Shown here piece after piece: positions 1,387-20,182 of a DNA stretch of 64,000 nucleotides (position 1 is its first letter; each line of letters opens with the position of its first letter). Below the pieces are notes generated by a model. The model did no database searches, was not told the DNA's origin, and worked only from the letters and a program-made list of their open reading frames with translations. Source of the DNA: Clostridia bacterium (GTDB lineage: Bacteria; Bacillota; Clostridia; Christensenellales; Aristaeellaceae); the NCBI GenBank assembly GCA_017519405.1, contig JAFWSH010000027.1:62001-126000 (forward strand), in the 5' to 3' direction. The position numbers and the translations under genes were made by a program.

Positions 1387-1390
1387 GAGG

Positions 1391-1921: not shown

Positions 1922-1926
1922 GCCAG

Positions 1927-2580
1927 ATGGCGAAACGGGATAAGAAACAGCCCCGGGAGCCGGAACAGACAGCCGCGGAGTTCTATCGCCTGAACACACG
2001 GGCGGTGGAAGACCTGGTCACGGCAGACGAGAGCAACGCGCCGGAAGTGAGTCCGGCCGAGCTCAGAAAGTATCAGGGGCGGCGGAAGCTCCATGTGGCC
2101 GACTGGCTGAAGGCTGTGCTGATCAAGTGGTGGCTGTCGGGCGTGGTGTGCTACTTTTTCGTCTGGGGGCTGGGTCTGTACGTGCCCAATCAGCTGGATC
2201 TGCTGGTGATCACCGGCGCCGCGCTGGGCTTTGTGAAAGATCTTGTGGAAAACAACATCTTCCGCTTCTATGCGACCGTGGCAGGCGGAAATGACCGCTG
2301 GATGATGTGCCCGAGGAAAGGCTTTGTGTCCCTGCCGATCAACGTGGTATATGCCATGCTGCTGGTATTCTGTGTGTCGCGGACATATGACACGTTGAAT
2401 ACGGTCTGGCTTGGGCTGCGCGGTCCGGACGCTGCCGTCCTGGGCGTCGGGCCGATCCTGTTCGGCCTTTTCGCCACCTTATGGGATCTGCTGTTTCTGG
2501 CTGTAAAGCATGGAATTCAGCGCATCGTGCATGATGCTCGCCGGAAGGTGGACGCATCGAAGGGAGAACACCATGATTGA
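1927..2580 (+). CDS. Membrane protein of unknown function with charged N-terminus
   Basis: 217 residues: about 60 polar, charged residues (MAKRDKKQPREPEQ...) followed by roughly four hydrophobic segments (around WWLSGVVCYFFVWGLGLYV, LDLLVITGAALGFV, LPINVVYAMLLVFCV and VLGVGPILFGLFATLW) and a basic cytoplasmic tail. Its stop codon overlaps the start of the downstream GH28 gene by 8 bases, a sign of translational coupling. Not recognised. It could be part of an unusual carbohydrate transport complex together with the two membrane genes before it, but nothing in the sequence proves this. Confidence 0.75.
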   Translation: MAKRDKKQPREPEQTAAEFYRLNTRAVEDLVTADESNAPEVSPAELRKYQGRRKLHVADWLKAVLIKWWLSGVVCYFFVWGLGLYVPNQLDLLVITGAALGFVKDLVENNIFRFYATVAGGNDRWMMCPRKGFVSLPINVVYAMLLVFCVSRTYDTLNTVWLGLRGPDAAVLGVGPILFGLFATLWDLLFLAVKHGIQRIVHDARRKVDASKGEHHD

Positions 2581-4132
2581 CCTGATCTGCGTGGGAGCCA
2601 GCGCCGCCTGTTTCGAGCTCCGGAACAGCGAGCCCTTTATGGCGCCTGAGCCCTTTGAAATCTGGCTGGACGGTGTTTTTCAGCGGCAGGCACAGGAGAA
2701 TGTGTTCTCCCTCTTCGGTCTGAAGCCCCGGACAGAGCACTCCCTGAAGGTGTGCATGGGCGGAACGTCAGAGGAGATGGTGTTCAGCACAAACGCGGAA
2801 TGCTGCGCTGTGGATGTGCGAGCCTTCGGTGCCGCGGGCGATGGCAAGACAGTCGACACTGCCGCCATCCAGCGGGCCATCCTGCTATTGCCGGAGGGTG
2901 GCCGCCTGGTCTTCCCGGCGGGCACCTACCTGACGGGACCCATCTTTCTGAAAAGCCACATGACCCTGGAACTGCAGGCCGATGCGTGCCTTCTGGGCCT
3001 CACCGACAAGGCGGATTATCCGGTGCTGCCGGGCTGCGTGACGGACGTTGAAAGCAGCCGTCAGGTTGTCACAGGTACATTCGAGGGCCAGACAAAGCCG
3101 ATGTACGCCTCACTCATCACGGCGGAATACTGTGAGGATATCGCCATCGTCGGCCCCGGGTGCATCGACGGGAATGCAGCGAACGGTACCTGGTGGCAGA
3201 CGTTCAGGACGGACCCTGTTGCAAGGCCGCGCCTGTGCTTCTTCAACCACTGCAAGCAGGTTTGTGTCCACGGTATCCAGGTCCGCAATTCCGCCTCCTG
3301 GCAGCTGCACCCCTATGAGTGCGACCAGATCGCCTTCTACGATGTCAGTGTGAGCGCACCGAAAGACAGTCCCAATACGGATGCCCTGGATCCGGAGAGT
3401 TGTGATGACGTGCGCATCATCGGCTGCCGTTTCTCCGTAGGGGATGACTGCATCGCCATCAAGTCCGGGAAGCTGGATGCCTCGGGACGCGCCATGCGGC
3501 CGGCCAGCCGCCACACCATCCGCAACTGTCTGATGGCCTTTGGCCATGGCGCCGTGGTGCTGGGCAGCGAGATCTCCGGCGGAGTCCGCGACTTGACGGT
3601 GAGCCAGTGTCTTTTCCGGGAAACAGACCGGGGTCTGCGCATCAAGACGCGGCGTGGCCGGGGCGAGGGGTGCTTCATCGATGATGTGGTCTTTGAAAAC
3701 ATCCGGATGGAGCGGGTGCTGACCCCTGTCGTGATCAACATGTTCTACCGCTGCGTGGATCCGGACGGGGATTCCGACTATGTGCAGAGCCGGGAGAAGC
3801 TGCCGGTGGATGCGCGGACGCCGCACCTGGGGCGGTTTACCTTCCGCAACATGACCTGCACCGATACAGAGGTGGCCGGCTGCTATGCGGAAGGCTTGCC
3901 GGAACGCCCGCTGGATGCGGTGACGCTGGAGAATGTGCGCATCGCCTACAGCAAGGATGCAAAGCCGGGGGTTCCCGCCATGTTTACCAACTCACCGGCG
4001 GTGTGCAGGATGGGGCTGTACTTCCGCAGCGTCAGGCAGGTGGTGCTTCGGAATGTGGTGCTGGAGGGAGTTGACGGAGAGCGGGTCATCACAGAGAATG
4101 TGGATTCGGTGACCTGCGACGGCCTTGCCTGA
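2573..4132 (+). CDS. Glycoside hydrolase family 28 (polygalacturonase-like)
   Basis: A 519-residue right-handed beta-helix enzyme that hydrolyses galacturonan or rhamnogalacturonan chains. The GH28 catalytic signatures are all present: NTD (N268-D270), GDD (291-292), GHG (324-326) and RIK (356-358). Residues 80-130 carry the pectate-lyase-like N-terminal repeat (VRAFGAAGDGKTVDTAAIQ). There is no signal peptide, so it probably acts in the cytoplasm on imported oligogalacturonides, in line with the neighbouring ABC ATPases and GH105 enzyme. The ATG at 2573 was chosen over upstream in-frame codons because AAGGGAGAA precedes it; it overlaps the previous gene by 8 bases. Confidence 0.93.
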   Translation: MIDLICVGASAACFELRNSEPFMAPEPFEIWLDGVFQRQAQENVFSLFGLKPRTEHSLKVCMGGTSEEMVFSTNAECCAVDVRAFGAAGDGKTVDTAAIQRAILLLPEGGRLVFPAGTYLTGPIFLKSHMTLELQADACLLGLTDKADYPVLPGCVTDVESSRQVVTGTFEGQTKPMYASLITAEYCEDIAIVGPGCIDGNAANGTWWQTFRTDPVARPRLCFFNHCKQVCVHGIQVRNSASWQLHPYECDQIAFYDVSVSAPKDSPNTDALDPESCDDVRIIGCRFSVGDDCIAIKSGKLDASGRAMRPASRHTIRNCLMAFGHGAVVLGSEISGGVRDLTVSQCLFRETDRGLRIKTRRGRGEGCFIDDVVFENIRMERVLTPVVINMFYRCVDPDGDSDYVQSREKLPVDARTPHLGRFTFRNMTCTDTEVAGCYAEGLPERPLDAVTLENVRIAYSKDAKPGVPAMFTNSPAVCRMGLYFRSVRQVVLRNVVLEGVDGERVITENVDSVTCDGLA

Positions 4133-4157
4133 TCAATCTGTGTCAAAGGAGGGATGG

Positions 4158-5288
4158 ATGATGTATGAGGCCATTGACCGATATGTGGACAGCCTGATTC
4201 GCCGATCCACCCCTGAACAGACGGCCTGGAATATTGAGAAGATCCGCCAGGGCAAGGCAACGGACTGGAACTACATCGACGGATGCATGATGACAGCGCT
4301 GCTGAACCTGGCGGAGGTCAGCAGGCGCCGGGACTATGCGGACTTCGTGGACCGGTTCATCAGCCACTTTGTGGAGGACAACGGGACGGTCCGGACCTTC
4401 CGGGGGGAAAAGCACTGCCTGGATGACATCAATGAGGGACGGGTGCTGTTTCCGCTGTACCTTACCACCGGCAGGGAAAAGTATAAAAAAGCCGCCGCCT
4501 ATCTCCAGGGCTGGCTGATGCAGCAGCCCAGAACGGCGGAGGGCAGCTGGTGGCATAAAGAGATCTATCCGAATCAGGTATGGCTGGACGGAATCTACAT
4601 GGCGCAGCCCTTCGAAGCGCTTTATCAAAAGACCTTCGGAGAGAGAGACTACACAGATATCACCCGGCAGATCCTGCTTGTCAGGGACCGGATGCGGGAC
4701 CCGGAGACCGGCCTGTACTTCCACGGATACGATGCCAGCCGCAAGGCATTCTGGTGTGATCCGGCAACCGGACGCTCCCGGAGTTTCTGGCTGCGGGCCA
4801 TTGGCTGGTTCTCGGTGGCGCTGGCAGATCTGTCGGAGATCCTGCCGGAGGGCGAGGACAGACGGCAGATTACTTCGGTCTTCGTGCAGCTGATGGAGGA
4901 CATGGCACGCTTCCGGGATCCCCGGAGCGGCATGTTCTGGCAGGTGGTGGATCAGGGCGGACGGCCCGGGAACTACCCGGAGAGCAGCGGCAGCGCCATG
5001 ATTGCCTACGCCATGCTGAAGGGGGCGCGGTTGGGCGTGCTGCCTGAGAAATACCGCGGGATTGGAAAGCAGGTCTTCGACAGCATCGTGCAGTCCTGTC
5101 TGACGACGACCGATGACGGCGATGTCTGCCTCGGCAGTATCTGCCTGGTGGCGGGGCTGGGCCCGGAGGACAACCGGCGGAGGGACGGCACCTTCGAGTA
5201 CTATATCTCGGAACCGGTGGTCAGCAACGACGCCAAGGGCGTTGCCCCCTTCCTGCTGGCTTACTCGGAGGTTATTCGTCCGGTATGA
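4158..5288 (+). CDS. Glycoside hydrolase family 105 (unsaturated rhamnogalacturonyl/glucuronyl hydrolase)
   Basis: A 376-residue (alpha/alpha)6-barrel enzyme of the YteR/YesR family. It removes the unsaturated uronic acid left at the non-reducing end of pectin fragments by lyases. The core motif WLDGIYMAQPF is present; its Asp144 matches the catalytic aspartate of the family, and the later HGYD and RAIGWF segments also fit. No signal peptide is seen, so it is cytoplasmic. The start is ATG 4158 (or ATG 4161), just after AAAGGAGGG; an earlier in-frame ATG at 4125 lies inside the GH28 gene and lacks a ribosome site. The 3' end overlaps the convergent AraC gene by 17 bases. Confidence 0.92.
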   Translation: MMYEAIDRYVDSLIRRSTPEQTAWNIEKIRQGKATDWNYIDGCMMTALLNLAEVSRRRDYADFVDRFISHFVEDNGTVRTFRGEKHCLDDINEGRVLFPLYLTTGREKYKKAAAYLQGWLMQQPRTAEGSWWHKEIYPNQVWLDGIYMAQPFEALYQKTFGERDYTDITRQILLVRDRMRDPETGLYFHGYDASRKAFWCDPATGRSRSFWLRAIGWFSVALADLSEILPEGEDRRQITSVFVQLMEDMARFRDPRSGMFWQVVDQGGRPGNYPESSGSAMIAYAMLKGARLGVLPEKYRGIGKQVFDSIVQSCLTTTDDGDVCLGSICLVAGLGPEDNRRRDGTFEYYISEPVVSNDAKGVAPFLLAYSEVIRPV

Positions 5289-6063
5289 TGGTGCGCATCT
5301 CCTCACCGGACACACTGAGGGCGGCGTGGCCTGTGGAGCCGTACTGGCTGGGGGAGACGCCGTACTTCTTCTTGAACACCCGGGAGAAGTAGAGGGGTTC
5401 CCGGAAGCCGCACATCCTGGCGATCTCCGCTACATTGCCCTTGGCGGAGGCCTGGGAGACCAGCAGCTCCGCCGCCACCTGCAGCCGCTTGTCCTGCAGG
5501 TACTGGTGGGGGGTCACGCCGATCTCCTTCTGAAACAGCTTCCGGAGGTAGTCGTAACTGAAGGGCAGGGAACGCAGAAAGCGGTCCAGCTCATAGGCGC
5601 TGTCTGTGTAGTTGGCGATGATCTGCCGCTCGATCTCCCGGACCACGTCGGAACGACGGCGCTCCTGGGAGTAGCAGGACAGATAGCAGCTGATGAGACT
5701 GCCGTAGGCGGTGAGGAGGGCAGTGCGCTCCGGCTGGCTGGAGTGAAAGTGGTACAGCACAGCCTCAAAAGCGTTCAGCAAAAAGTGGTTGCTGTCATCC
5801 TGGATGACGGCAGGCTCCTTCAGGGTGATCACCGGCTGCTGCATGTTGATATGGATATTGCGGAAGCCGTGTTCCGAGGCGTTGGCGTGGGGGACCCGGG
5901 GCGGAATCGCCACGATCTCGCCCTGGCTGTAGGGAAGGCTGGTGTCATCAAAGCGGAAAAAGCCCTCACCCCAGGTACAGTAGACGAACTCCCAGCTCTC
6001 GTGGACATGCCGCTGCACCGTGTGCATCAGCGCATGCCGGCCCACATAGACGATCTCATTCAT
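5272..6063 (-). CDS. AraC family transcriptional regulator
   Basis: 263 residues: an N-terminal cupin-like sensing domain (residues about 1-130, with HVHESWEFVYC and the PPRVPHAN turn) followed by a double helix-turn-helix at about 165-260, including VAEIARMCGFREPLYFSRVFKKKYGVSPSQY, the AraC signature. Such proteins usually bind a sugar or uronate and activate adjacent catabolic genes. It is convergent with GH105 and divergent from the second MalK-like gene, with its own promoter at 6095-6123, so it probably controls the pectin island. The ligand is not known. Confidence 0.92.
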   Translation of the reverse strand: MNEIVYVGRHALMHTVQRHVHESWEFVYCTWGEGFFRFDDTSLPYSQGEIVAIPPRVPHANASEHGFRNIHINMQQPVITLKEPAVIQDDSNHFLLNAFEAVLYHFHSSQPERTALLTAYGSLISCYLSCYSQERRRSDVVREIERQIIANYTDSAYELDRFLRSLPFSYDYLRKLFQKEIGVTPHQYLQDKRLQVAAELLVSQASAKGNVAEIARMCGFREPLYFSRVFKKKYGVSPSQYGSTGHAALSVSGEEMRTIIPDE

Positions 6064-6094
6064 TCCGCGGCATCCTTTCCTGAACGATATCCGT

Positions 6095-6149: not shown

Positions 6150-7238
6150 ATGGCCTACCTGACCCTGAGAAACATCAACAAGATTTACCCCAACGGTTTC
6201 CATGCGGTGCACAACTTCAATCTGGAGATCGAGAAGGGTGAGTTTGTTGTCTTTGTGGGCCCATCGGGCTGCGGCAAATCCACCACGCTCCGGATGATCG
6301 CCGGATTGGAGGAGATTTCCAACGGTGAGTTCCTCATCAATGGCGAGCGGGCCAACGAGAAGGGGCCGCGGGAGCGGGAGATCGCCATGGTGTTCCAGAG
6401 CTATGCCCTCTATCCCCAGATGACGGTGTATGACAACATCGCCTTTGGCCTGACGCTCCAGGGGGTGGATGAGGACATTATCGAGGAGCGGGTCAACAAT
6501 GTGGCCCGTATTCTGGGCCTGACGGACTACCTGGACCGCTTGCCCAGAGCCCTCTCCGGCGGACAGCGCCAGCGGGTGGCCATTGGCCGTGCCATCATCC
6601 GCAAGGTGGGCGTGTTCCTGATGGACGAGCCCCTCTCCAACCTGGACGCCAAGCAGCGTGTGACCATGCGGTATGAGATTGCCCAGATCCACAAGGAGAC
6701 CGGCGCCACCACCATCTATGTGACCCATGATCAGACGGAGGCCATGACCCTGGCGGACCGGATTGTGGTGATGAAGGACGGCTATGTGCAGCAGGTAGGT
6801 ACGCCGTACGAGCTGTACTTCCAGCCGGCCAATGTGTTTGTGGCGGGCTTCATCGGTGAGCCGCCCATGAACTTCCTCCGGGGCACCGTGACCCATGGCT
6901 GCCTCCACTTCGGCAAAAACCGGATCGATCTGAGCAAGGTACTGCCGGAAGCGGCCGGAATGGAGGGCAAGCCCATTGTCCTGGGCTACCGTCCGGAGGC
7001 GATTCTGCTGGGCCAGCAGCCTGACGGCTATGTGGTGACCGGCAATGTGGAATTGACGGAGATGCTGGGGGATTACACAAATATCTACATCACTGCGGAG
7101 GAAGACCAGGCCATTCTGAAGGTGGACAGCCATGACACGCCCCAGATGGATATTGACCTGACCTATACCATCCCCTATACCGCCGTCTACCTCTTCGACG
7201 GGGAGACGGAGAACGTCATTCCCACCAGGCACGAATAA
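6150..7238 (+). CDS. ABC transporter ATP-binding protein, MalK/MsmX type (second copy)
   Basis: A 362-residue ATPase closely similar in layout to the one at 310-1386: Walker A GPSGCGKSTT, signature LSGGQRQRVAIGRA, Walker B FLMDEPLSNLDA, YVTHDQTEAMTLADR, then a TOBE regulatory domain (LGYRPEAILLG). It energises a CUT1 sugar importer. ATG 6150 follows GAGGAGGGACGC; it is a separate transcription unit that ends at the hairpin at 7337-7363. No permease accompanies it, so it is a good candidate for a general MsmX-like ATPase that serves several importers. Confidence 0.93.
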   Translation: MAYLTLRNINKIYPNGFHAVHNFNLEIEKGEFVVFVGPSGCGKSTTLRMIAGLEEISNGEFLINGERANEKGPREREIAMVFQSYALYPQMTVYDNIAFGLTLQGVDEDIIEERVNNVARILGLTDYLDRLPRALSGGQRQRVAIGRAIIRKVGVFLMDEPLSNLDAKQRVTMRYEIAQIHKETGATTIYVTHDQTEAMTLADRIVVMKDGYVQQVGTPYELYFQPANVFVAGFIGEPPMNFLRGTVTHGCLHFGKNRIDLSKVLPEAAGMEGKPIVLGYRPEAILLGQQPDGYVVTGNVELTEMLGDYTNIYITAEEDQAILKVDSHDTPQMDIDLTYTIPYTAVYLFDGETENVIPTRHE

Positions 7239-7336
7239 ACCTGTGTATGTACCGGCTCCCGCACAAAACAAGGCAGCGGCTTCGGGTGTTGCCAACAAGG
7301 ATACAAATTGCCGGGCGAAGCCTTCCGGACCATAAC

Positions 7337-7363
7337 AAAGACGCCGCGTGAAACGGCGTCTTT
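7337..7363. terminator. Bidirectional rho-independent terminator
   Basis: Perfect 10-base stem AAAGACGCCG / CGGCGTCTTT with a 7-base loop; the arms provide T-runs on both strands. It lies between the convergent MalK-like gene and the amino acid ABC ATPase, so it can end both. Confidence 0.85.
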
Positions 7364-7383
7364 GTATTTAGCGTGGGGGAGAA

Positions 7384-8172
7384 TCAGTTTTCATCGCGGT
7401 AGCGGGACAGAAACTGGCGCGTGCGCTCCTGCTGCGGGTTGCCGAACACCTCGGCGGGGGAGCCCTGCTCGCAGATTCGGCCATCGTCCATGAAAATCAC
7501 GTGGCTGGATACGTCCCGGGCAAAAGCCATCTCATGGGTGACAATCACCATGGTGGTATTCCGTTCCGCCAGGCCCCGGATCACCCGAAGCACCTCCCCG
7601 GTGAGTTCCGGATCCAGGGCGGAGGTGGGCTCATCAAAGCAGAGAATATCCGGACTCAGCGCCAGCGCCCGTGCAATGGCCACCCGTTGGCATTGTCCGC
7701 CGGAAAGCTGGTGGGGATAGTTGTTCATGCGGTTGGCCAGCCCCATCTCCCGCAGCAGGTCTTCAGCATGTGCACGGATTCGCGCCGTGATTTCCGCTTT
7801 ATGCGTCTTCCATCCCGGTGTCTCCCGGGCCAGGAGTTCCTCCGCCAGCATCACATTCTGCAGGGCTGTATACTGTGGAAACAGGTTAAAGGACTGAAAG
7901 ACAAGCCCAAAGTGCAGCCGCTTCTTCCTGGTCTCCTGGGCGCTGAGCCTATCCGCGTGACTTGCGTCCAGCAGCACCTCGTCCCGAACACGAATGATTG
8001 CCTCATCAGGGCGCTCCAGGAAGTTCAGACAGCGCAGCAGCGTCGTCTTGCCGCTGCCCGAGGAGCCGATGATGGAGAGGGTATCGCCCGCCTCCATGGA
8101 GAAAGAGATGTCGTCCAGCACCAGGGTCTGGCCAAAGGATTTCCGAAGATGTTCAACTTCCAGAATCGGCAT
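7384..8172 (-). CDS. Polar amino acid ABC transporter ATP-binding protein (GlnQ type)
   Basis: 262 residues, the usual size of GlnQ/ArtP-type subunits. Walker A is GSSGSGKTTLLRCLN, the signature LSGGQCQRVAIARALA and Walker B CFDEPTSALDPEL; VIVTHEMAFARDV follows. It powers uptake of a polar amino acid by the permease (8188-8925) and binding protein (9000-9776) encoded upstream on the same strand. The gap to the permease is 15 bases. GGAGGAGGAAC precedes the start. The substrate cannot be told from this subunit. Confidence 0.93.
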   Translation of the reverse strand: MPILEVEHLRKSFGQTLVLDDISFSMEAGDTLSIIGSSGSGKTTLLRCLNFLERPDEAIIRVRDEVLLDASHADRLSAQETRKKRLHFGLVFQSFNLFPQYTALQNVMLAEELLARETPGWKTHKAEITARIRAHAEDLLREMGLANRMNNYPHQLSGGQCQRVAIARALALSPDILCFDEPTSALDPELTGEVLRVIRGLAERNTTMVIVTHEMAFARDVSSHVIFMDDGRICEQGSPAEVFGNPQQERTRQFLSRYRDEN

Positions 8173-8187
8173 GTTCCTCCTCCTTTC

Positions 8188-8925
8188 TCAGCGGAAGTAA
8201 CTGAGTTTCTTCTCCAGTTTTGCCAGCCCCACGGTGAGCAGGCCGTTGGCCACCAGGTAGTAAACGCCGGTGAAGAACAGGGGCCAGATGGCGCCGGATA
8301 TGCCCTGGGATCCTTTCAGGAAGGCTTGTCCCGCCCAGATGACCTCCTGAAGGGAGATGATCCGGGCCAGGGAGGTGTCCTTCACCAGGGTAATGATTTC
8401 GTTGGAAATGGGGGGCAGGATGGCCTTGATCATCTGCAGGAGCTTCACTTTGAAGAAGATCTGCCAGCCGGTCATGCCCAGAACCAGGCCCGCCTCCTCC
8501 TGGCCCACGGGAATGCCCTGTATGCCGCCCCGGTAGATCTCGCAGAAATAGCAGGCGTAGTTGATGATGAAGGCCACCGCGGCGGCGGTAAAACGTCCAT
8601 CCTCACCGCCGCTCCACTTGCAGCTGCGCAAAAAGGCCAGAAACCAGTTGGATTCAGCCGCCTCGGCGGAGATGCTGCCAGCCAGCAGGCCGGGGCCGTA
8701 GTAGATAATCAGCAGCTGGATCATCAGCGGTGATCCCCGAATGATCCAGACAAGCACCTTGATGGCCCCCCGCAGTACCCGGGCCCGGGAAACCTCACCC
8801 AATGCCAGCAGGAGCCCCAGCGGCAGGGCGCCCAGCAGCGTGACGAAGAACAGCTTCATCGTTTGCAGGAAGCCGACGTTGAGTGAATTGAAAACCACCG
8901 GGAATTGCTGCAAAAACTGCTCCAT
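8188..8925 (-). CDS. Polar amino acid ABC transporter permease
   Basis: A 245-residue inner-membrane subunit of the His/Glu/Gln/Arg permease family. It has the hallmark pattern RGSPLMIQLLIIYYGPG, the CYFCEIYRGGIQGIPVGQEEAG stretch (EAA-type coupling helix, about residues 145-165) and ISNEIITLVKDTSLARIISLQEV. About five membrane segments are visible. An insertion around residues 95-125 (LAGSISAEAAESNWFLAFLRS) is somewhat longer than typical. ATG 8925 was preferred over an in-frame codon at 8949 because GGGGGGAG lies just upstream. A hairpin separates it from the binding-protein gene. Confidence 0.92.
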   Translation of the reverse strand: MEQFLQQFPVVFNSLNVGFLQTMKLFFVTLLGALPLGLLLALGEVSRARVLRGAIKVLVWIIRGSPLMIQLLIIYYGPGLLAGSISAEAAESNWFLAFLRSCKWSGGEDGRFTAAAVAFIINYACYFCEIYRGGIQGIPVGQEEAGLVLGMTGWQIFFKVKLLQMIKAILPPISNEIITLVKDTSLARIISLQEVIWAGQAFLKGSQGISGAIWPLFFTGVYYLVANGLLTVGLAKLEKKLSYFR

Positions 8926-8950
8926 ACTTCTCCCCCCACGAAAGACCAAA

Positions 8951-8979
8951 GGCAGGAGTATCCGCCGGATACCCCTGCC
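8951..8979 (-). terminator. Intercistronic hairpin between binding-protein and permease genes
   Basis: Thirteen-base arms GGCAGGAGTATCC and GGATACCCCTGCC with a three-base loop and one non-Watson-Crick pair, followed on the minus strand by TTTGGTCTTT. Hairpins at this place usually protect or partly terminate the message so that more binding protein than permease is made; that role is inferred. Confidence 0.65.
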
Positions 8980-8999
8980 TTGTGATCAAATAACGGGCA

Positions 9000-9776
9000 T
9001 TATTCCTGCGGAATGATGGCGAGCTGCACACCGTAGAGCTCAGCAGTAGACATCATGGAGCCATCAGCCCAGGAGGCGGCGAAGAAGGCGTTCAGCGCAT
9101 CCACCAGGTCAGAGCCCTGGCGGAAGCCCACGCCGTACTTTTCCTCGGTCAGGGGCACGGTGTAGGTCAATCCGGCATAGTCGGTGCCTTCACCCACCAT
9201 GGCGGCGGCCATCAGGGAGTCGATGATGGCGGCGTCAGAGGTCTGGGCGGCAACCTCCAACAGGGTCGCGGCCTGGTTCTGCACGGGGTTGAAAGCAACA
9301 CCCAGGTCCTCTGCGGCTGCCTGACCGGCACTGCCGGCTTCCACCGCAAAGGTCAGCCCTGCCAGGCTCTCCACCGTCTGATAGTCCGCGGCCTTATCCA
9401 CCGGGACGATCACGATCTGGGCGTTGTTGGCGTAGGGGTTGGAGCAGCTCATGGAGGAGAGCACCTCGTCGGTGAGGGTCATGCCGTTCCAGACGCAGTC
9501 GATGTTGCCGCTGTTGAGCTCCAGGACCTTGTTGTCCCAGTCGATCTCCACAAACTCCACCTCAACGCCCAGATATCTGGCGAAGTACTGCGCCATGTCG
9601 GCGTCAAAGCCCACCCAGGAGCCGTCCGTGTCGCGATAATCCATGGGGGCGAAATCGGTGATGCCCACCACCAGCTTTCCCTTGGCCAGCACAGCCTCCT
9701 TGTCGCTCTCGGCCAGGCCGGCGCAGCACACCATCAGCATGGCCAGGCAAAGTATCAGGGCAACCAGTTTCTTCAT
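9000..9776 (-). CDS. Polar amino acid ABC transporter substrate-binding protein
   Basis: 258 residues with an export signal (MKKLVALILCLAMLMVCCAG, cleavage probably near AGLA-ES, or lipidation at one of the two cysteines). The mature part is a family 3 solute-binding protein: KLVVGITDFAPMDYRD, GFDADMAQYFARYLGVEVEFVEIDWDN and LNSGNIDCVWNGMTLTDE are the diagnostic segments. It delivers an amino acid to the permease and ATPase encoded downstream. It is the first gene of the unit, behind a good promoter at 9816-9844 and AGGAGGAAGG. Confidence 0.93.
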   Translation of the reverse strand: MKKLVALILCLAMLMVCCAGLAESDKEAVLAKGKLVVGITDFAPMDYRDTDGSWVGFDADMAQYFARYLGVEVEFVEIDWDNKVLELNSGNIDCVWNGMTLTDEVLSSMSCSNPYANNAQIVIVPVDKAADYQTVESLAGLTFAVEAGSAGQAAAEDLGVAFNPVQNQAATLLEVAAQTSDAAIIDSLMAAAMVGEGTDYAGLTYTVPLTEEKYGVGFRQGSDLVDALNAFFAASWADGSMMSTAELYGVQLAIIPQE

Positions 9777-9815
9777 TGTTCCTTCCTCCTGTCATTTAGG
9801 TTAGGATCCTTTAGC

Positions 9816-9844
9816 AATATACCACTTTATCATGGTAAAGTCAA
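9816..9844 (-). promoter_or_regulatory. Promoter of the amino acid ABC operon with overlapping palindrome
   Basis: Minus strand TTGACT (9839-9844), 17-base spacer, TATATT (9816-9821). The spacer and -10 contain an inverted repeat TACCA-N8-TGGTA (9820-9837), which could be an operator for a nutrient-responsive repressor; no repressor can be named. Confidence 0.7.
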
Positions 9845-9951
9845 GAGAGACGCTTCAAACTCAGGTACACCGGAAGACCATAGAGACAGTCCATATGACA
9901 CAGCGGTATACAATGAACGGTTATCAGATATTGCGCATTGCCTAAAACCGA

Positions 9952-9980
9952 TTGAGTACTGCGGGATTTCGTGGTAAAAT
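9952..9980 (+). promoter_or_regulatory. Promoter of the xylanase unit
   Basis: TTGAGT (9952-9957), 17-base spacer, TAAAAT (9975-9980), about 50 bases before the GH10 start codon. The rest of the gap 9845-9951 shows nothing else I can identify. Confidence 0.6.
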
Positions 9981-10030
9981 ATCTCTTGGGACACGGAATC
10001 CATGATACGAACGTGGAGGAGGAACAGAGG

Positions 10031-11269
10031 ATGAGGATGTGGCAGAAGAGCCTTGCTATTCTGTTGGCACTGGGGCTGGGGATCATGCCCTGCGTCGGCA
10101 TGGCCGATGAAGCCGGGAAGGTGGCCGGTGACTACGAACCGCTCTATCCCTATGCGGAGCGGCACGGCTTCAAACTGGGCGGCGCCTTCGGCTACAGGGA
10201 CATGACCAATGTCGTATACATGGAGTTCCTGGCCAGGCATTTTGACTCCCTGACCTGCACCAACGAGACCAAGGCCTATTCCCTGCTGAACCAGCAGCGC
10301 TGCAAGACCTCTCCGGACGGCATGCCGAGGATGAACTACGGCACAGCGGACCGGATGGTGGGCTGGTGCCAGGAACACGGGATCCATGTGCGCGGACACG
10401 TTCTGGTCTGGGATGCCTATATGCCGGACTGGTTCTTCCGGGAAGGCTACGACAGCAAGAAGCCCTATGTGGATCAGGAGACCATGCGGGCCCGGCTGGC
10501 GTACTATATCGATGATGTGGTCACGCACTTTGAGGTGAATTTCCCAGGCGTCATCTACTGCTGGGACGTGGTGAATGAGGCCATCGCCGACGGCGCCAAC
10601 GAATGGGTTGCTGGCGATCCGAGGCATCTGCGCGCCAGCCGCAGCGGCGTCTCCAACCTCTTCCTGGATCACGTGGGAAGCGATTATGTGGAGTTCTCCT
10701 TCCTCTGCGCCAGAAAGACGGTGGATAAGTTGGGCGTTGATATCAAGCTGTTCTACAACGACTACAACATGTTCATGGCACAGAAGCGGACGGCTGCGCT
10801 GGCCCTGATTGATTCCATCCAGGGCTATGCGAAGGATGAGAACGGGGATCCCATCCATCTCATCGACGGCATCGGCATGCAGGGGTACCTGGGCGGATAT
10901 GGCGTGCAGTCCGGCTGCCTGGATCCCGGAATTCTGACATCCCTCACCAAGTCTTTTGAGCTCTACAGCGCCAAGGGGCTGGAAGTGCAGATCACCGAGA
11001 TGGCGGTGCGGAATTTCGACCAGAGCAAAGCGGCCCAGCATGACGCGTTCTATGCCAGGCTTTTCACGGATGTGTTCATGAAGGCGAATGCGGGGGAGAC
11101 CAAGCCCCTGACGGCCGTATGCATCTGGGGCCTTGTGGATGCACCGGCCAACGACAAGAACAGCTACACCTACAAGATGAACAGCCCCTACGGCGGCCTG
11201 CTCACCACGCGCTACAAGATCAAAACCTGCTTCGACGCCATGTATCACGCCCTGGCGGATGCGGAATAA
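10031..11269 (+). CDS. Secreted endo-1,4-beta-xylanase, glycoside hydrolase family 10
   Basis: 412 residues. A signal peptide (MRMWQKSLAILLALGLGIMP, cleavage near GMA-DE) sends it out of the cell, where it cuts xylan backbones. The GH10 barrel carries the acid/base Glu183 in WDVVNEA and the nucleophile Glu323 in VQITEMAV; FYNDYNMF and GIGMQGYL also fit. The usual HxLVWH segment reads HVLVWDAYMPDWFF, so the second conserved histidine is an aspartate, which may alter specificity. No carbohydrate-binding module or sortase/SLH anchor is present. ATG 10031 follows GGAGGAACAGAGG and gives a clean signal peptide; the in-frame ATG at 9971 does not. First gene of a three-gene unit. Confidence 0.94.
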   Translation: MRMWQKSLAILLALGLGIMPCVGMADEAGKVAGDYEPLYPYAERHGFKLGGAFGYRDMTNVVYMEFLARHFDSLTCTNETKAYSLLNQQRCKTSPDGMPRMNYGTADRMVGWCQEHGIHVRGHVLVWDAYMPDWFFREGYDSKKPYVDQETMRARLAYYIDDVVTHFEVNFPGVIYCWDVVNEAIADGANEWVAGDPRHLRASRSGVSNLFLDHVGSDYVEFSFLCARKTVDKLGVDIKLFYNDYNMFMAQKRTAALALIDSIQGYAKDENGDPIHLIDGIGMQGYLGGYGVQSGCLDPGILTSLTKSFELYSAKGLEVQITEMAVRNFDQSKAAQHDAFYARLFTDVFMKANAGETKPLTAVCIWGLVDAPANDKNSYTYKMNSPYGGLLTTRYKIKTCFDAMYHALADAE

Positions 11270-14870: not shown

Positions 14871-15683
14871 TCAGGGATGGGTGATCAGTATGCTGTCCAT
14901 CACTTTCGGAATTCTGCATGCAATCTTTCCATGGTATTTCGCATCCAGATAGTCTGCGAACGCCTGCGGGTCGGCGCTGTTGTCCGCGAACATGTCCCAG
15001 TGACCGGGAATGACCAGGCGGGTTTCAGCCTCCCCGGCGAAATCCACCGCCTCTTGCCAAGTCATGTTGCCAATGCACTGCCGGCGGTATCGGGTCCCGT
15101 CCCGGCCGTTGATGGGCAGCAGCTGCGTGTCCATCCGGCCGAAGGCGGCAAGCCTGGGCAGCATACCCTCATACCGGAGCGTATCCCCGGCATGATGGAT
15201 GCACACGCCGTTTCCCACGATGATATACTGCAGGCAGGGATACAGGTGTGACTCCGGATCCTGCGAGAGGAATTCGTGGGCAGCCGCCATGGCATGGACG
15301 GTCACATCCCCGATCCGCACGGACTCCCCGTCATTCAGCCCGACGGCCCGATCACTGCCGATGCCATCCGCCAGCACCTCTTCACGGTGCATCCGGGGAA
15401 AAACGAACAGCGCATCCGGGCAGGTGCGGGCCCAGGTCTTCCAGGCTTCGTGGTCTATGTGATCCAGATGATTGTGGGTTCCGAGGAAGGCGGTGACCCC
15501 GCAGACTTCCTCCGCAGGAACAGGCGGCGGAGTGCACCGGCCTTCGTTGGGGGAGGCGAAATAATCAATGCAGAGAATGGTTTCTCCAATCTTCACCAGC
15601 ATCCCCATCTGTCCAAGCCACCATAGGATGGCAGCCCCGGACGGCACCACGGCGTTGCGCACTTCCTGCATCCTGCTGTTCAT
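14871..15683 (-). CDS. Metallo-beta-lactamase fold hydrolase, UlaG-like
   Basis: 270 residues. The metal-binding motif GTHNHLDHIDHEAW (HxHxDH) and a later HHAGDTLRYEG, plus VIPGHWDMFADN, identify an UlaG-type lactonase/phosphodiesterase relative. UlaG itself opens L-ascorbate-6-phosphate lactone; other family members act on other lactones or phosphodiesters, so the substrate is not assigned. There is no signal peptide. It is the last minus-strand gene before the convergent deformylase, separated from pyrH by 87 bases, so it may have its own promoter or be read from the pyrH unit. Confidence 0.87.
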   Translation of the reverse strand: MNSRMQEVRNAVVPSGAAILWWLGQMGMLVKIGETILCIDYFASPNEGRCTPPPVPAEEVCGVTAFLGTHNHLDHIDHEAWKTWARTCPDALFVFPRMHREEVLADGIGSDRAVGLNDGESVRIGDVTVHAMAAAHEFLSQDPESHLYPCLQYIIVGNGVCIHHAGDTLRYEGMLPRLAAFGRMDTQLLPINGRDGTRYRRQCIGNMTWQEAVDFAGEAETRLVIPGHWDMFADNSADPQAFADYLDAKYHGKIACRIPKVMDSILITHP

Positions 15684-15770: not shown

Positions 15771-16484
15771 TCAGGGGTGGACAAAGGTGCCCATGGCGTC
15801 GCCCTGCAGCACCTTGACCAGATTCTCCGGCTGATCCAGGCCGAAGACCCGCACCATGGGCACGGCATTCTCGGCGCAGATGGCAAAGGCGGCAGTGTCC
15901 ATGACCTTCAGGCCCCGGGCAATGGCCTCGCGGTAGGTGATATCCCGGATCAGGGTGGCGGAGGGATCCTGCCGGGGATCCGCTGTGTACACGCCGTCAA
16001 TGTTCTTCGCCATCAGGATGGCGTCCACCTGCATCTCCACGGCACGCAGCGCCACCGCGGTATCGGTGGAGAAGAAGGGGTTGCCGGAGCCGGCGGCAAA
16101 GAGTACCACCTTGCCCTCCGAGAGCAGGCGCCGGGCTGTCATGGCATGAAAGGGCTCGCAGAACCGATCCATGTCAACCGCGCTCATGACCACGGCGTCC
16201 AGCCCTTCCCGCCGCAGGGCATCCCCCATGCACAGGCAGTTGATCACCGTGCCCAGCATGCCCATCTGATCGGCAATCACCGGATCCATGCTGGCGGCAG
16301 GCCCCTGGCGGCCGCGCCAGATGTTGCCTGCGCCGATGACAATGCCGATCTCGGCACCCAGCTCATGCATCTGCCGGATGGTCCGGGCAGCCGTGGCCAC
16401 CTGATCGAAGTCAAAGATGTTCCCGTCGGACCCCAGCGCCTCGCCGCTGAGCTTGAGCAGGACCCGCTTATATTGGATCGCCAT
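15771..16484 (-). CDS. pyrH: UMP kinase
   Basis: 237 residues, the standard size. It phosphorylates UMP to UDP in pyrimidine nucleotide synthesis and is a hexameric amino-acid-kinase-fold enzyme. Motifs: KRVLLKLSGEALGS (phosphate loop), GAGNIWRGRQG (nucleotide site), TDTAVALRAVEM and DKN-like AKNIDGVYTADP. ATG 16484 is 6 bases from GGAGG; codons upstream are open but belong to the promoter region. The gene has its own promoter overlapping the end of the preceding deaminase-like gene. In most Firmicutes pyrH lies between tsf and frr; here it does not. Confidence 0.96.
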   Translation of the reverse strand: MAIQYKRVLLKLSGEALGSDGNIFDFDQVATAARTIRQMHELGAEIGIVIGAGNIWRGRQGPAASMDPVIADQMGMLGTVINCLCMGDALRREGLDAVVMSAVDMDRFCEPFHAMTARRLLSEGKVVLFAAGSGNPFFSTDTAVALRAVEMQVDAILMAKNIDGVYTADPRQDPSATLIRDITYREAIARGLKVMDTAAFAICAENAVPMVRVFGLDQPENLVKVLQGDAMGTFVHP

Positions 16485-16518
16485 GCAAACGCCTCCTGTT
16501 GTGGATGATGTCAGGGAT

Positions 16519-16547
16519 ATTATAGATAAAGGCGGACGCTGCGTCAA
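16519..16547 (-). promoter_or_regulatory. pyrH promoter
   Basis: Minus strand TTGACG (16542-16547), 17-base spacer, perfect TATAAT (16519-16524), 35 bases before the pyrH start. The -35 lies over the stop codon of the deaminase-like gene. Confidence 0.8.
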
Positions 16548-16556
16548 GGCAGCGTC
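16535..16556 (-). other. Hairpin over the end of the deaminase-like gene
   Basis: Perfect 8-base stem GACGCTGC / GCAGCGTC with a 6-base loop that overlaps both the stop codon and the pyrH -35. Only a weak T-run follows, so it is a partial terminator or message-end structure at best. Confidence 0.6.
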
Positions 16557-18982
16557 GTGCCATCCCCTGCCGGGAATAGATTCTCCGGGAGCGGGAAGAG
16601 GGGCGTAACATAGCCCTCCAGCAGCTGCGCCTTGGCAGCCAGGGAGCGGCTTTTCTGATTGATGAGGATCCTGCACTTGGGCCGCGCATTCCGCGCTTCC
16701 TGAATGAGGTTCAGCACCGCCGAATTCCCGTCAAAGACCAGCAGCACCGACGGCAGGCGGCTGAAGATCTCGTAAGCAAAACTTTTGTACAGACCCCGGT
16801 AGCTGCTTTCAATGGACACCAGCACCCGCACGCCAGCCGCTCTCAGCCGATCCCGCTCGCTGCGGCTGATGCGGCTGGGGACAATGGCATAGATGGGGAA
16901 TCGGCCGGCGGCCTGCTGAACCAGATAGCCCTCCTGTCCGGTCAGAGTATGCCCCACCACAAAGCAGACTTTTTCCGGATCCGCCTGCGTCAGCAGGGAA
17001 TCCAGCAGCGTACGGTCCTCTGCCTTCAGACGGGTGCGATGCCGGCTGTCGGAAAAACTGCCCCCGGCCACCACCACCGGCAGGCATCCCGTGGGCCGCT
17101 GGGTCAGCTGCGCCTGCAAGGCGGCCGCTGCATCCAGTTTCCCCTTCTCCTCCTGCATCAGCCCGCATGGACGAGCCTGTGCAGCAGATGCATCGGGCAG
17201 GGAATCTGTGGGCAGGCTTGTCTGGGCATCCGCTTTTTGCCGGAAGATCCGGCGGCTCTCAGCCAGGATTCGATCCTCCGCCTCCCGCATCTGACGGAGC
17301 TCGGCGGAGGTCAGTCCCAGCAGCTTCTCCAGGCTCAGCTCCTCGTCGATGGAGTTGGTACCGTACAGGGCGCCGCCGTCCGTGCCCTGTACGCAGGCAA
17401 TGCCTGCGCTCAGGTACTGCCGCAGGGGATGCCGGTCCAGGCGGCTGAGGTTGTTCAAGCGCACATTGGACGTGATCTGGAACTCCAGGGTCACGCCGCA
17501 GCTGCGCATCTCCTCCAGCAGGCGCTTGCCCTTGGCGCTGCGCAGATCACAGGTATACAGGCCGTGACCGATGCGCAGATGCGGCATGGGCTGGCCTTCC
17601 GCCAGGGATTCCCGGACGCACCGGATGCTCTCCGCCACGTTGTCCCGGAGACTGTCGTTCTCCCCGGCGTGAATGCGGATCACAAAACCCTCGTGGGTGC
17701 CGGCAATGGCCACCAGCTCCCGGATGGTGCCGCGCAGCTCGCGGATGTCGTTGATCTCCTCGCCGATAATGTCGCTGCCGGCTACATAGGGGTCGTTCGC
17801 GATCAGCCGCAGGCAGCGCAGGTTCTCCGCCAGATAGTTGTCCGGCGTGATCCGGTCCCGGATGATGGAGAGGGGAATCCGCCGGATGCCGGCGAGAAAG
17901 CGCAGCAGCACACCGGTCTCCCGGGTGATATCCGGCATGACTTCATGGATTTGCCGCAGCCGATCCGGAAACGAAGCGGCATTCACTAGGGATGTGTCAG
18001 AGATCTCGGCATACTCGATGCCGTGCTTCTGATACTCCCGGGCGATCCACAGCAGCAGGTCCTGAAACAGGGTGTTGCGGCGATAGCGCTCATCTGTGTG
18101 ATCCCGCTGCATGGACGCGGCGAAGGCCCGCACATCCCGGTCCGGGATCACCGCAAGATTCATGCCGGCAAAGGGATCCTCCGACGGCTTCCCGCGGGTG
18201 AAGACATAGCGGTACAGGTAGACCTTTTCCAGATCCGCAAAGACGGCCTGCCCGTCCTTGGGGATGGTGAGGGAGGTACGGATCCTGGCTATGTTCATGG
18301 CAGCGTCCTTGGGGTTGCCAAGAATCAGGTCGGCGAAATTGATAAAGGTCAGATCATCGATCCGCCGCTCCCGGTGCTTGCCCGTCAGCGTGGTTTCGCC
18401 CAGGGCAGCCTCCGCCGCCTGCCGCCTGGTCTCCAGCTTGGCCAGCTGCTCCAGGGTGCAGCCCAGGCCCAGCTTCTTGATGTAGTAATACGGATACCGA
18501 ATCTGATGGATGATGCCCAGGGCGATGAGCACGTCCGGCGGTAGATTGCCGTTCATGTGGGTGTGGAGATCGGTGCGGAATTTGCACTCGCTGCGGATAT
18601 AGGTCTTGACGATGGTTTTCTCGATCCCCAGCCGGTAATCCTTGGTCTGGCTCATCAGTGTCTTGGAGATGGCGGGGATGGAGGCCTTCAGCTCCACCCG
18701 CCCATCCGGAAAGATGTTGGCCACCTTTGTGTTTCCGAGGCGGAAAATGTACATGCGGCGGTTCTCACCGTCAAAATAGCACGGCACCTCACCGCGAATC
18801 ACTTTGAGCCCCTGCTCGTCCTCCTCTGTGGCGAGACCGCAGAGCCTGGCCAGATTGGTGATCAGATTGCCGGTGCGGTGGTTGGGGGTGCGGATCACAT
18901 AACAAAGGCGCTCGCCTTCCATCATGAGATCCACCGCGATGTCCTTCTCGCGGTCAAGAAAAAATTGCTGAAAGAAGATCAC
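16544..18982 (-). CDS. Adenosine-deaminase-like protein fused to a Rossmann/SLOG-like domain
   Basis: 812 residues in three parts. Residues 1-130: an N-terminal domain I do not recognise. Residues 135-590: an amidohydrolase of the adenosine/AMP deaminase type, with the metal pair H140/H142 (TDLHTHMNGNL), HAGE (438-441), IGHG (471-474), FQITSNVRLNN and QGTDGG (metal Asp535). The usual second Asp of the deaminase TDDP motif is Gly here. Residues 634-790: an alpha/beta domain (VVVAGGSFSDS, VCFVVGHTLTGQEGYLVQ, FPIYAIVP, SVLLVFDGNSAVLN) that resembles SLOG/DprA-type nucleotide-binding folds. GTG 18982 was chosen because AAGGAGG lies 7 bases before it; ATG 19015 is an alternative. It follows lexA and msrC on one transcript. 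Substrate unknown. Confidence 0.8.
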   Translation of the reverse strand: MIFFQQFFLDREKDIAVDLMMEGERLCYVIRTPNHRTGNLITNLARLCGLATEEDEQGLKVIRGEVPCYFDGENRRMYIFRLGNTKVANIFPDGRVELKASIPAISKTLMSQTKDYRLGIEKTIVKTYIRSECKFRTDLHTHMNGNLPPDVLIALGIIHQIRYPYYYIKKLGLGCTLEQLAKLETRRQAAEAALGETTLTGKHRERRIDDLTFINFADLILGNPKDAAMNIARIRTSLTIPKDGQAVFADLEKVYLYRYVFTRGKPSEDPFAGMNLAVIPDRDVRAFAASMQRDHTDERYRRNTLFQDLLLWIAREYQKHGIEYAEISDTSLVNAASFPDRLRQIHEVMPDITRETGVLLRFLAGIRRIPLSIIRDRITPDNYLAENLRCLRLIANDPYVAGSDIIGEEINDIRELRGTIRELVAIAGTHEGFVIRIHAGENDSLRDNVAESIRCVRESLAEGQPMPHLRIGHGLYTCDLRSAKGKRLLEEMRSCGVTLEFQITSNVRLNNLSRLDRHPLRQYLSAGIACVQGTDGGALYGTNSIDEELSLEKLLGLTSAELRQMREAEDRILAESRRIFRQKADAQTSLPTDSLPDASAAQARPCGLMQEEKGKLDAAAALQAQLTQRPTGCLPVVVAGGSFSDSRHRTRLKAEDRTLLDSLLTQADPEKVCFVVGHTLTGQEGYLVQQAAGRFPIYAIVPSRISRSERDRLRAAGVRVLVSIESSYRGLYKSFAYEIFSRLPSVLLVFDGNSAVLNLIQEARNARPKCRILINQKSRSLAAKAQLLEGYVTPLFPLPENLFPAGDGTTLP

Positions 18983-19011
18983 CCGTATGCCTCCTTCGGG
19001 TCCGGAAGACA

Positions 19012-19482
19012 TCAAATCAGCCCGTCTGACCAGTCGATGCTGTCCAGCAGGGCCTTTGTAAAAGCTGTAAGCCCCGCCTCATCAGCTGCCGTAAAGCGGG
19101 CAACCCTGGGGCTGTCAAGATCCAGAACCCCCCGCAGGATGCCGTCATTCGTCACAAGGGGAATGACCAGCTCACTGCGGGATGCCTCATCGCAGGCGAT
19201 ATGGCCCGGAAAACTGTGCACATCCTCCACCCGCTGAGGACAACGGGACGCCGCGGCTGTGCCGCACACGCCGCGGCCGAGCCGAATGCGGGTGCAGGCG
19301 ATTTTGCCCTGAAAGGGTCCCAGCAGAAGCTCCTCTCCGCTGAGAAGATAGAATCCGGCCCAGTTGATGTCAGGGAGACTGGTCCACAGAAGCGCCGCAG
19401 CGTTGGCCAGCATGGGCAGGGGCTTGCTGCAGCCCTCCGACAGGGCGCTGATCTGCGCATTCAGCAGTGCATAATCTGTCAT
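19012..19482 (-). CDS. msrC: Free methionine-(R)-sulfoxide reductase (GAF domain)
   Basis: 156 residues forming a single GAF domain that reduces free Met-R-sulfoxide. The three family cysteines are present as Cys63 (KIACTRI), Cys73 (GRGVCGTA) and Cys97 (GHIACDEASRSELVIP); their spacing of 10 and 24 residues equals that of the E. coli enzyme. INWAGFYLL is the conserved N-terminal segment. It begins 13 bases after lexA and ends 29 bases before the deaminase-like gene, so it should be co-transcribed with lexA. Placing an oxidative-repair enzyme in the LexA unit makes sense for an anaerobe facing oxidative damage; that is inference. Confidence 0.93.
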   Translation of the reverse strand: MTDYALLNAQISALSEGCSKPLPMLANAAALLWTSLPDINWAGFYLLSGEELLLGPFQGKIACTRIRLGRGVCGTAAASRCPQRVEDVHSFPGHIACDEASRSELVIPLVTNDGILRGVLDLDSPRVARFTAADEAGLTAFTKALLDSIDWSDGLI

Positions 19483-19495
19483 GGAAACCTCCCGC

Positions 19496-20110
19496 TCACT
19501 TGATCAGCCGGTACAGGGAGACGACCTTGCCCAGGATGGTCACATCGTCGGCTATGATGGGCGCCATGCTGCTGTTCTCCGGCTGCAGGCGGAAGTGTCC
19601 GTTTTCTTTGTAAAACCGTTTGACCGTGGCTGCGTCCTCCACCATAGCCACCACGATCTCCCCGTTGAGGGCCTCCTGCTGGCGACGCACGACAATGCGG
19701 TCGCCATCCAGAATGCCGGCCTCAATCATGCTGTCGCCGTGCACCTGCAGGATAAAATGCTCCCCATCGCCCAGCAGCGTCTCCGGCAGGGGAATAAAAT
19801 CCTCCAGGTTTTCCTCCGCCAGAATGGGGAGTCCTGCCGTCACGTGCCCCAAAACCGGCACCTGCACCGTGGCGGTGCCGCCGCCCTGGTCCGCTTCGCT
19901 GGTGAGCTCCATCGCCCGGGGCTTCATGGCATCCCGATGCAGCAGGCCTTTTTTCTCCAGCCTGCGGAGATGTCCGTGCACCGTGGAGGTGGATTTGAGC
20001 CCCACCGCGTTGGCAATCTCCCGCACAGACGGCGGATAACCCTTTGTCTGGATCTCGCTGCGGATATACTCCAGGATCCGCTGCTGATTGTCTCCTCGTG
20101 GATGCTGCAT
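19496..20110 (-). CDS. lexA: LexA repressor
   Basis: 204 residues, normal length. The winged-helix DNA-binding domain occupies 1-70 ([20 protein letters not shown]). The self-cleavage site is Ala92-Gly93 (HVTAGLP), with catalytic Ser127 (GDSMIEAG) and Lys164 (TVKRFY). LexA represses DNA-damage genes until RecA filaments trigger self-cleavage. A LexA box overlaps its own -35, so it is autoregulated. ATG 20110 lies 11 bases after a GGAAAGGCGG-type site. First gene of the lexA-msrC-deaminase unit. Confidence 0.97.
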
Positions 20111-20142: not shown

Positions 20143-20171
20143 ATCATATCATATATGGAAGAAAAAATCAA
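20143..20171 (-). promoter_or_regulatory. lexA promoter
   Basis: Minus strand TTGATT (20166-20171), 17-base spacer, TATGAT (20143-20148), 33 bases before the lexA start. Confidence 0.85.
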
Positions 20172-20182
20172 ACATATGTTCG
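20169..20182. promoter_or_regulatory. LexA (SOS) box
   Basis: On the minus strand CGAAC-ATAT-GTTTG, one base away from the Gram-positive consensus CGAAC-N4-GTTCG. It overlaps the lexA -35, the usual place for autorepression. Confidence 0.9.

Follow-up and report, generated by a model that had tools for sequence, protein, structure and literature searches.

A SLOG-like domain fused to an adenosine-deaminase barrel in gut Clostridia: a candidate self-contained, ligand-gated nucleotide deaminase

What would a large and mobile deaminase gene be doing immediately behind lexA, and would its product answer to DNA damage or to a signal of another kind? The question is raised by the genome of a Clostridia bacterium of the Aristaeellaceae (assembly GCA_017519405.1, contig JAFWSH010000027.1, positions 62,001 to 126,000 of the forward strand; this whole stretch of 64,000 nucleotides is called here the window). 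The encoded protein joins an N-terminal domain, an adenosine-deaminase (ADA) barrel and a C-terminal domain resembling the SLOG superfamily, and a preliminary description of the same DNA had put forward as plausible a nucleotide-sensing deaminase induced by DNA damage. The reading that we favour, with a rough probability of 0.45 for the whole of it (substrate, gating, oligomer, spread and role included), is that of a self-contained nucleotide deaminase gated by its SLOG-like domain. The gene and its parts are placed as follows.

16544-18982, minus strand: gene of the N-domain/deaminase/SLOG-like protein, an open frame of 812 amino acids
18584-18982, minus strand: N-terminal domain, residues 1-133, common to the L064-type relatives over 60 aligned columns
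17273-18583, minus strand: adenosine-deaminase barrel, approximately residues 134-570, with a Pfam match and an invariant metal site
16583-17101, minus strand: C-terminal SLOG-like domain, residues 628-800, with the motifs GGSF, IGH..G.E and FDGNSA..N.IQEA

The three parts are common to the 88 family sequences of an alignment, the window protein included, and to four distant relatives added to it (from loci L064, L187, L188 and L189); left out were 11 of 100 distinct sequences, whose N-terminal match started after residue 5 or whose match ended before residue 790. The deaminase call of the preliminary description was borne out, as PF00962 (A_deaminase), the sole Pfam family seen in the protein, matches residues 308-566 at E 1.9e-15, its 57.2 bits being well over the cut-off of 27. 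H140, H142, H438, E441, H473 and D535 are invariant in 88/88 aligned sequences and in the four distant forms, which makes a chance origin of the frame untenable; the metal site is intact, and these residues, with the motifs HAGE (438-441) and GHG (472-474), stand where they had been first described. Between H142 and H438 the barrel holds about 100 more residues than mouse ADA. The N-terminal domains of the window family and of the distant set align with each other (hhalign, 60 columns, score 41; none of 100 column shuffles exceeded 17, and the reversed profile scored 9). None of 33 N-domains has a Pfam match better than E 0.045, and profile searches of the PDB gave no relative of the N-domain.

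The C-terminal domain is very probably SLOG-like, as supported by a two-step profile chain that passes through the distant relatives. In the first step, the C-domains of the window family align with those of the distant set over 161 columns (hhalign score 44; none of 100 shuffles exceeded 22, and the reversed profile scored 13). In the second, the best Pfam matches of the C-termini of three of the four distant relatives are SLOG families, all under the curated cut-offs: LSDAT_prok (E 2.5e-4 to 0.022; at most 20.8 bits against a cut-off of 25.4), LSDAT_euk (0.0055 to 0.043) and YAcAr (0.025). Furthermore, a model built from three distant C-domains and run against 274 genomes placed three window-family C-termini at the top of its matches (8.8e-7, 2.8e-5 and 4.0e-5). 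The relative of locus L189 (3686-6370) is longer than the others, with 895 residues and a long extra linker between deaminase and C-domain, and the one match of its C-terminus, to the model of a minimal CRISPR polymerase, is at chance level (E 0.15).

The pocket of the barrel is changed at two places, where equivalence with mouse ADA was set by motif. The position of Asp19 is occupied by asparagine in 77 and by serine in 11 of the 88 sequences, and by alanine or serine in the four distant relatives. At the position of Asp296 all 92 (88 family members plus four distant) have glycine, so that both aspartates are absent. Most plain ADAs of the class carry HxHxDG and, in the cases in which the motif search landed on the right place, TDD or TDN. 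A comparable pocket is reported for TaqCad1, which has glycine at the Asp19 and asparagine at the Asp296 position (PMC12669630). According to the same paper, TaqCad1 deaminates ATP and not AMP or ADP, its adenosine activity is at most weak and its N549D variant gave no reaction with ATP. The substrates of the RdrB protein of RADAR are likewise ATP and dATP, neither AMP nor adenosine being used (PMC9994260). Because the ribose-binding Asp19 is lost here as in Cad1 and RdrB, a phosphorylated substrate is suggested for the SLOG-fused deaminase.

In turn, the C-terminal domain offers a clue to its own activity. The LOG motif PGGxGTxxE carries a catalytic glutamate, and the corresponding position, in a hand alignment to this motif, is N758, an asparagine in 88/88 sequences, which favours sensing over base release. 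SLOG domains include non-catalytic sensors of ligands of the cyclic ADP-ribose (cADPR) type (PMC9503650), and gcADPR is bound by the SLOG domain of ThsA (PMC12948488).

The gene is patchily distributed. Among 60 kin genomes 14 are carriers (9/12 of the same genus, 5/24 of other genera of the family, 0/24 of other families of the order), one of them, G005, with the gene cut by a contig end. At the level of the class, 24 of 391 genomes match the SLOG-fused deaminase at E <= 0.001, of which 11 near full length (the window's own counted), one in the distant form (G343, locus L064) and 12 over the ADA part only; among 398 genomes of the phylum two match at E <= 1e-25, the window's own being one. 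A scan of named genome contigs with two peptide patterns gave at least 545 stretches encoding a relative (tblastn E <= 1e-3), in which one gene may be counted more than once; the best 80 of these are all from Clostridia or other Bacillota by title, many of them from ruminant gut samples. From the relatives, 104 loci with 99 distinct proteins were fetched, with flanks of up to about 10 kb, shorter on some sides.

The trees of the deaminase and of RuvB (LG+G4, 12 genomes having both genes) clash, indicating that the deaminase gene moves horizontally between lineages. In the RuvB tree nine same-genus genomes form one clade (100/99), whereas in the deaminase tree G014, of another genus, lies inside the main group, and G004, G006 and G011 group with other genera; forcing monophyly of the genus on the latter costs 196 log-likelihood units (approximately unbiased test, p 2.3e-43). 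The RuvB branches of G014 and G020 are long, and the G005 sequence is partial. Neither does the gene travel with a constant neighbour in the loci examined: clusters of frames within 6 kb, built from 100 loci, touch at most 21 of them, at varying distances and in varying orientations, some of the frames being antisense to genes, and a constant partner was rejected on these grounds. An earlier clustering of genes, superseded by that of the frames, had also given few shared neighbours. The commonest Pfam family among 131 of the 184 adjacent proteins is the AI-2E transporter, with five proteins, the remainder being spread over 143 families; 53 adjacent proteins (longer than 520 aa, or lying at a distance of over 600 bases) had been dropped from this set, and large neighbours were checked for RdrA and RdrB only.

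A lone mobile gene with no evident partner, whose product unites a domain of sensor type with a barrel that is intact but altered in its pocket, is best read as a self-contained, ligand-gated nucleotide deaminase. We infer that the SLOG-like domain would bind a nucleotide-type ligand as a sensor, not as a base-releasing enzyme, and that, once occupied, it would control the deaminase barrel, which in turn would convert a phosphorylated adenine nucleotide, most likely ATP, dATP or a related one, into the inosine nucleotide. The N-domain and the extra barrel segment may serve to keep an oligomer assembled. As the search for a partner gene found none, the signal would probably be something that the cell or an invader makes anyway, and the gene would be a module for stress or phage defence that spreads between gut Clostridia. 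A bolder form of this proposal, which we regard as possible but doubtful, would be a third, one-gene kind of nucleotide-deaminating immunity, in which SLOG-gated ATP deaminases of gut Clostridia, mobile on their own and dependent on no CRISPR, RdrA or TIR partner, would sense an infection- or stress-made nucleotide and poison the ATP pool with ITP.

Several observations weigh against the favoured reading. Some concern the SLOG-like domain itself: besides the sub-threshold scores of the distant C-termini, the fourth distant form, L189, has no SLOG match there, the model of the distant C-domains did not find the window's own C-terminus (G000), and the latter matches no Pfam family, SLOG families included, at E <= 10. 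The SLOG likeness is thus defensible solely through intermediates; of the resemblance that the preliminary description had drawn, the indirect form stands and the direct one does not. No SLOG family appears in 25 listed Pfam matches (26 in all) of 51 window-family C-termini, profile searches of the PDB with the C-domain gave no relative, PHROGs yielded nothing of use, and PF18171 gave one match at 8.9e-4 in 196 genomes, none over its cut-off. Others concern the pocket, since asparagine at the Asp296 position (NTDN) is also met in ordinary Clostridial ADAs, and Asp19 is missing from the first motif (e.g., DLHNHFVLGGS) of seven further ADA-like proteins, 313-341 aa long (L208, L210-L215), so that neither change alone marks the use of ATP. 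The remaining ones concern the surroundings: TIR_2, the sole TIR model used, occurs in 6/14 carriers against 19/46 non-carriers, with none in the window genome (80% complete); phage and plasmid records hold partial matches only and no full-length SLOG-fused deaminase; and PADLOC models match the 131 neighbours (E <= 1e-10) in 11 families of one member each, five of them generic (WYL twice, Csa3 twice, DEDDh) and six defence candidates (PDC-S07, PDC-S48 twice, mad2, mad3, RmrA).

Known deaminase and SLOG systems help to place the protein. With Cad1, the CARF-ADA ancillary effector of type III CRISPR, it shares the union in one chain of an ADA barrel and a presumed nucleotide-binding domain, as well as the absence of Asp19 and the change of Asp296 (PMC12669630). 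The two differ in the sensor-like domain, here SLOG-like and C-terminal, and at the Asp296 position, glycine here and asparagine in Cad1. No CARF domain was found with Pfam in the 33 N-domains or with PADLOC, both of which a very diverged CARF could escape. The PADLOC CARF_ADA model does match the window protein (1.3e-5, within the ADA part, residues 312-542) and that of L064 (5.5e-17), but in a search of 291 genomes it matches ordinary ADAs of about 330-360 aa far better, up to 3.2e-54; the window match thus means "ADA" only, and membership in Cad1 on the strength of it was rejected. In the L064 protein (8226-10574) the match extends back to model position 177, most plain ADAs beginning at about 245-260, so that the N-domain of this relative may be the counterpart of the linker between CARF and ADA in Cad1. 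Cas10 had no match among the 131 adjacent proteins, a set without proteins longer than 520 aa, and CRISPR-like spaced repeats are absent from the window and occur in 1/104 loci (L075, a doubtful case in which a GC-rich 20-mer stands three times).

RdrB, to which the preliminary description had pointed, resembles the window protein in its size (about 800-900 aa), its N-terminal extension before HxH and its extra segment before HAGE (PMC9994260). A Clostridial RdrB, that of locus L259, also has glycine at the Asp19 position (HFHIGGS), but it keeps TDD, at 234 residues from the GH histidine against 62 for the equivalent stretch here. This locus of a Clostridia genome (G294, 858-6086) holds a RADAR pair, RdrA of 840 aa and RdrB of 894 aa, adjacent and on one strand, with PADLOC matches of 6.7e-15 and 2.3e-33 respectively and a third large frame (6565-8649) after it. 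The PADLOC RdrB models, which recognize this true RdrB, do not match the window protein at E <= 1. When the two are compared directly, E is 0.002, but the catalytic motifs are out of register in the aligned stretch, and the L259 RdrB is absent from the family-model matches at E <= 10. No RdrA-like or RdrB-like frame was found at E <= 0.01 with phmmer and the L259 queries in 9473 frames (window 6-30 kb and the 104 loci), a search that a very diverged RdrA could escape. On this evidence the suggested kinship was abandoned.

With the ordinary adenosine deaminase, Add, the protein shares the barrel, the metal site and a PF00962 score over the cut-off; it departs from it in the replacement of Asp19 and Asp296 of the mouse enzyme by N/S and G, and in its scores with the NCBIfam adenosine-deaminase equivalogs, none of which exceeds 43.5 bits, while the lowest cut-off is 216.55 (best score 43.5 against 459; TIGR01430 40.9 against 216.55). 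In turn, the family model gives at most 40.8 bits to 16 plain ADAs against 167-249 bits to the L064, L188 and L189 proteins; as the motif used to select these ADAs covers the Asp19 position, they are unusable for judging it. As for the SLOG superfamily (LSDAT/TRPM type, as in Thoeris ThsA), the C-domain is probably related to it through the intermediates described; ThsA has a SIR2 effector in place of a deaminase, and no TIR pairing is seen here. A Thoeris-like pairing was rejected, TIR_2 being no commoner in carriers.

An alternative that we consider unlikely is a metabolic two-step enzyme, in which an adenine nucleotide (AMP, or one that is methylated or damaged) would be deaminated by the barrel and then lose its base from the sugar phosphate through the SLOG-like domain, for house-cleaning or salvage and with no part in signalling. 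The ordinary neighbours, the AMP-like substrates of LOG-type SLOG domains (PMC9503650) and the presence of the gene in three quarters of the same-genus genomes are consistent with it, but the asparagine at the catalytic position of LOG speaks for a domain that does not cut, and the patchy horizontal spread is unlike that of core salvage. Nor does the gene stand in for a missing housekeeping ADA, a possibility rejected because 44/46 non-carriers also have no PF00962 match at E <= 0.001 (of the two that do, one is over the cut-off). The 60 kin genomes are nearly devoid of ordinary ADA: outside the SLOG-fused family only G015 (a frame of 335 aa) and, weakly, G038 match PF00962 at E <= 0.001.

It is likewise improbable, in our estimate, that the protein is specifically an anti-phage effector flooding the cell with inosine nucleotides, a proposal that overlaps with the favoured reading, of which it fixes the role as immunity, so that the estimates are not to be summed. 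Both a large ADA protein, RdrB, and a sensor-fused one, Cad1, act in this way (PMC9994260, PMC11645235), and the horizontal spread fits. Against this stand the few defence-model matches nearby, the lack of a full-length match in phage or plasmid records and that of an RdrA-like frame in 105 loci. Moreover, the scans found no relative in viral contigs, and no plasmid carries the distant, L064-type form at E <= 1e-8; phage or plasmid cargo was rejected as an origin.

That the protein is a receptor derived from a deaminase, no longer catalytic and confined to binding nucleotides, is quite improbable: the glycine at the Asp296 position in 88/88 sequences would fit it, as would the impairment of mouse ADA by Asp296 to Asn (reported in PMC12669630), but metal ligands, catalytic glutamate and metal-side aspartate are all invariant.

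There remains the position of the gene behind lexA, for which the following features of the window matter.

18990-18996, minus strand: ribosome-binding site AAGGAGG, 7 bases 5' of the GTG of the deaminase gene
19012-19482, minus strand: msrC-like gene, a name taken over from the preliminary description
19496-20110, minus strand: presumably lexA, named likewise; relatives found in 24/35 kin genomes
20169-20182, minus strand: LexA (SOS) box CGAACATATGTTTG, which shares bases with the -35-like hexamer of the lexA promoter
16519-16547, minus strand: promoter-like site (11/12) ahead of the downstream pyrH-like gene, beginning at the stop codon of the deaminase gene

On their common strand, the minus one, which the preliminary description had left unstated, lexA is followed by the msrC-like gene after 13 bases and the latter by the deaminase gene after 29, gaps that the coordinates confirm, and a simple scan found no terminator-like site between the three on that strand. 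The GTG start codon of the deaminase gene (18980-18982) agrees with the relatives, 11/12 of which have M at the start column. The box CGAACATATGTTTG is the sole zero-mismatch match within the 64 kb to the Gram-positive SOS consensus; because it overlaps the lexA promoter, SOS induction of the deaminase gene is plausible in the window genome, where co-transcription with lexA is likely, though local to it.

The relatives sampled do not keep this linkage, an outcome that the preliminary description had itself named as telling against its proposal. With the window lexA and msrC as queries (tblastn, E <= 1e-8), neither gene was found in any of the 104 loci, and around ten kin lexA genes msrC lies on the same fragment in 8/10 and the deaminase gene in 0/10; seven of these genomes, same-genus carriers, have lexA and the deaminase gene on different contigs. 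When one mismatch is allowed, a LexA box is found upstream of 0/97 deaminase relatives, against 8/10 of the kin lexA genes that served as control, and a two-mismatch box upstream of 6/98 (window included), about the shuffled rate (62/980 with two or fewer); two loci with fewer than 150 bases upstream were left out of the scan. A link with damage is thus not a family trait, the position behind lexA looks accidental, and an SOS effector as a family-wide property was rejected. The rise with DNA damage that had been expected keeps its ground in the window, with the perfect box and no terminator-like site, and loses it for the family. That the protein is a damage-response enzyme of the LexA regulon, at least in the window organism, is very improbable in spite of the same strand, short gaps and perfect box, given the empty loci and upstream regions of the relatives.

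The closest approach to a kept linkage with the window surroundings is in G010, where ruvB lies 12.7 kb from the deaminase gene on the same contig, convergent, with lexA on another contig. Other window genes are weakly matched near relatives: pyrH at L081, def at L144, HAD at L076 and a partial ruvB-like sequence at L141. In the window, the promoter-like site of the pyrH-like gene (15771-16490) is separate and sits where the deaminase gene ends. The usual neighbour of pyrH is frr, in place of which an MBL-like gene (14871-15683) follows.

By title and abstract start, no SLOG-deaminase fusion was found among the papers listed in a search of open-access literature, and an earlier mention is possible in the 2015 survey of SLOG systems. 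Nor is such a fusion mentioned in the available portions of PMC7159879, PMC12948488 and PMC11204291. Two immune systems are known to use the deamination of ATP as a weapon, RADAR and the CARF-ADA protein Cad1 (PMC9994260, PMC11645235). If the favoured reading is true, the fusion would be a third architecture beside these, with the same barrel and a SLOG-like domain in one chain; the deaminase would appear as an effector module that can be coupled to sensors of different kinds, and the fusion would offer a simple, one-protein system for finding what such domains sense.

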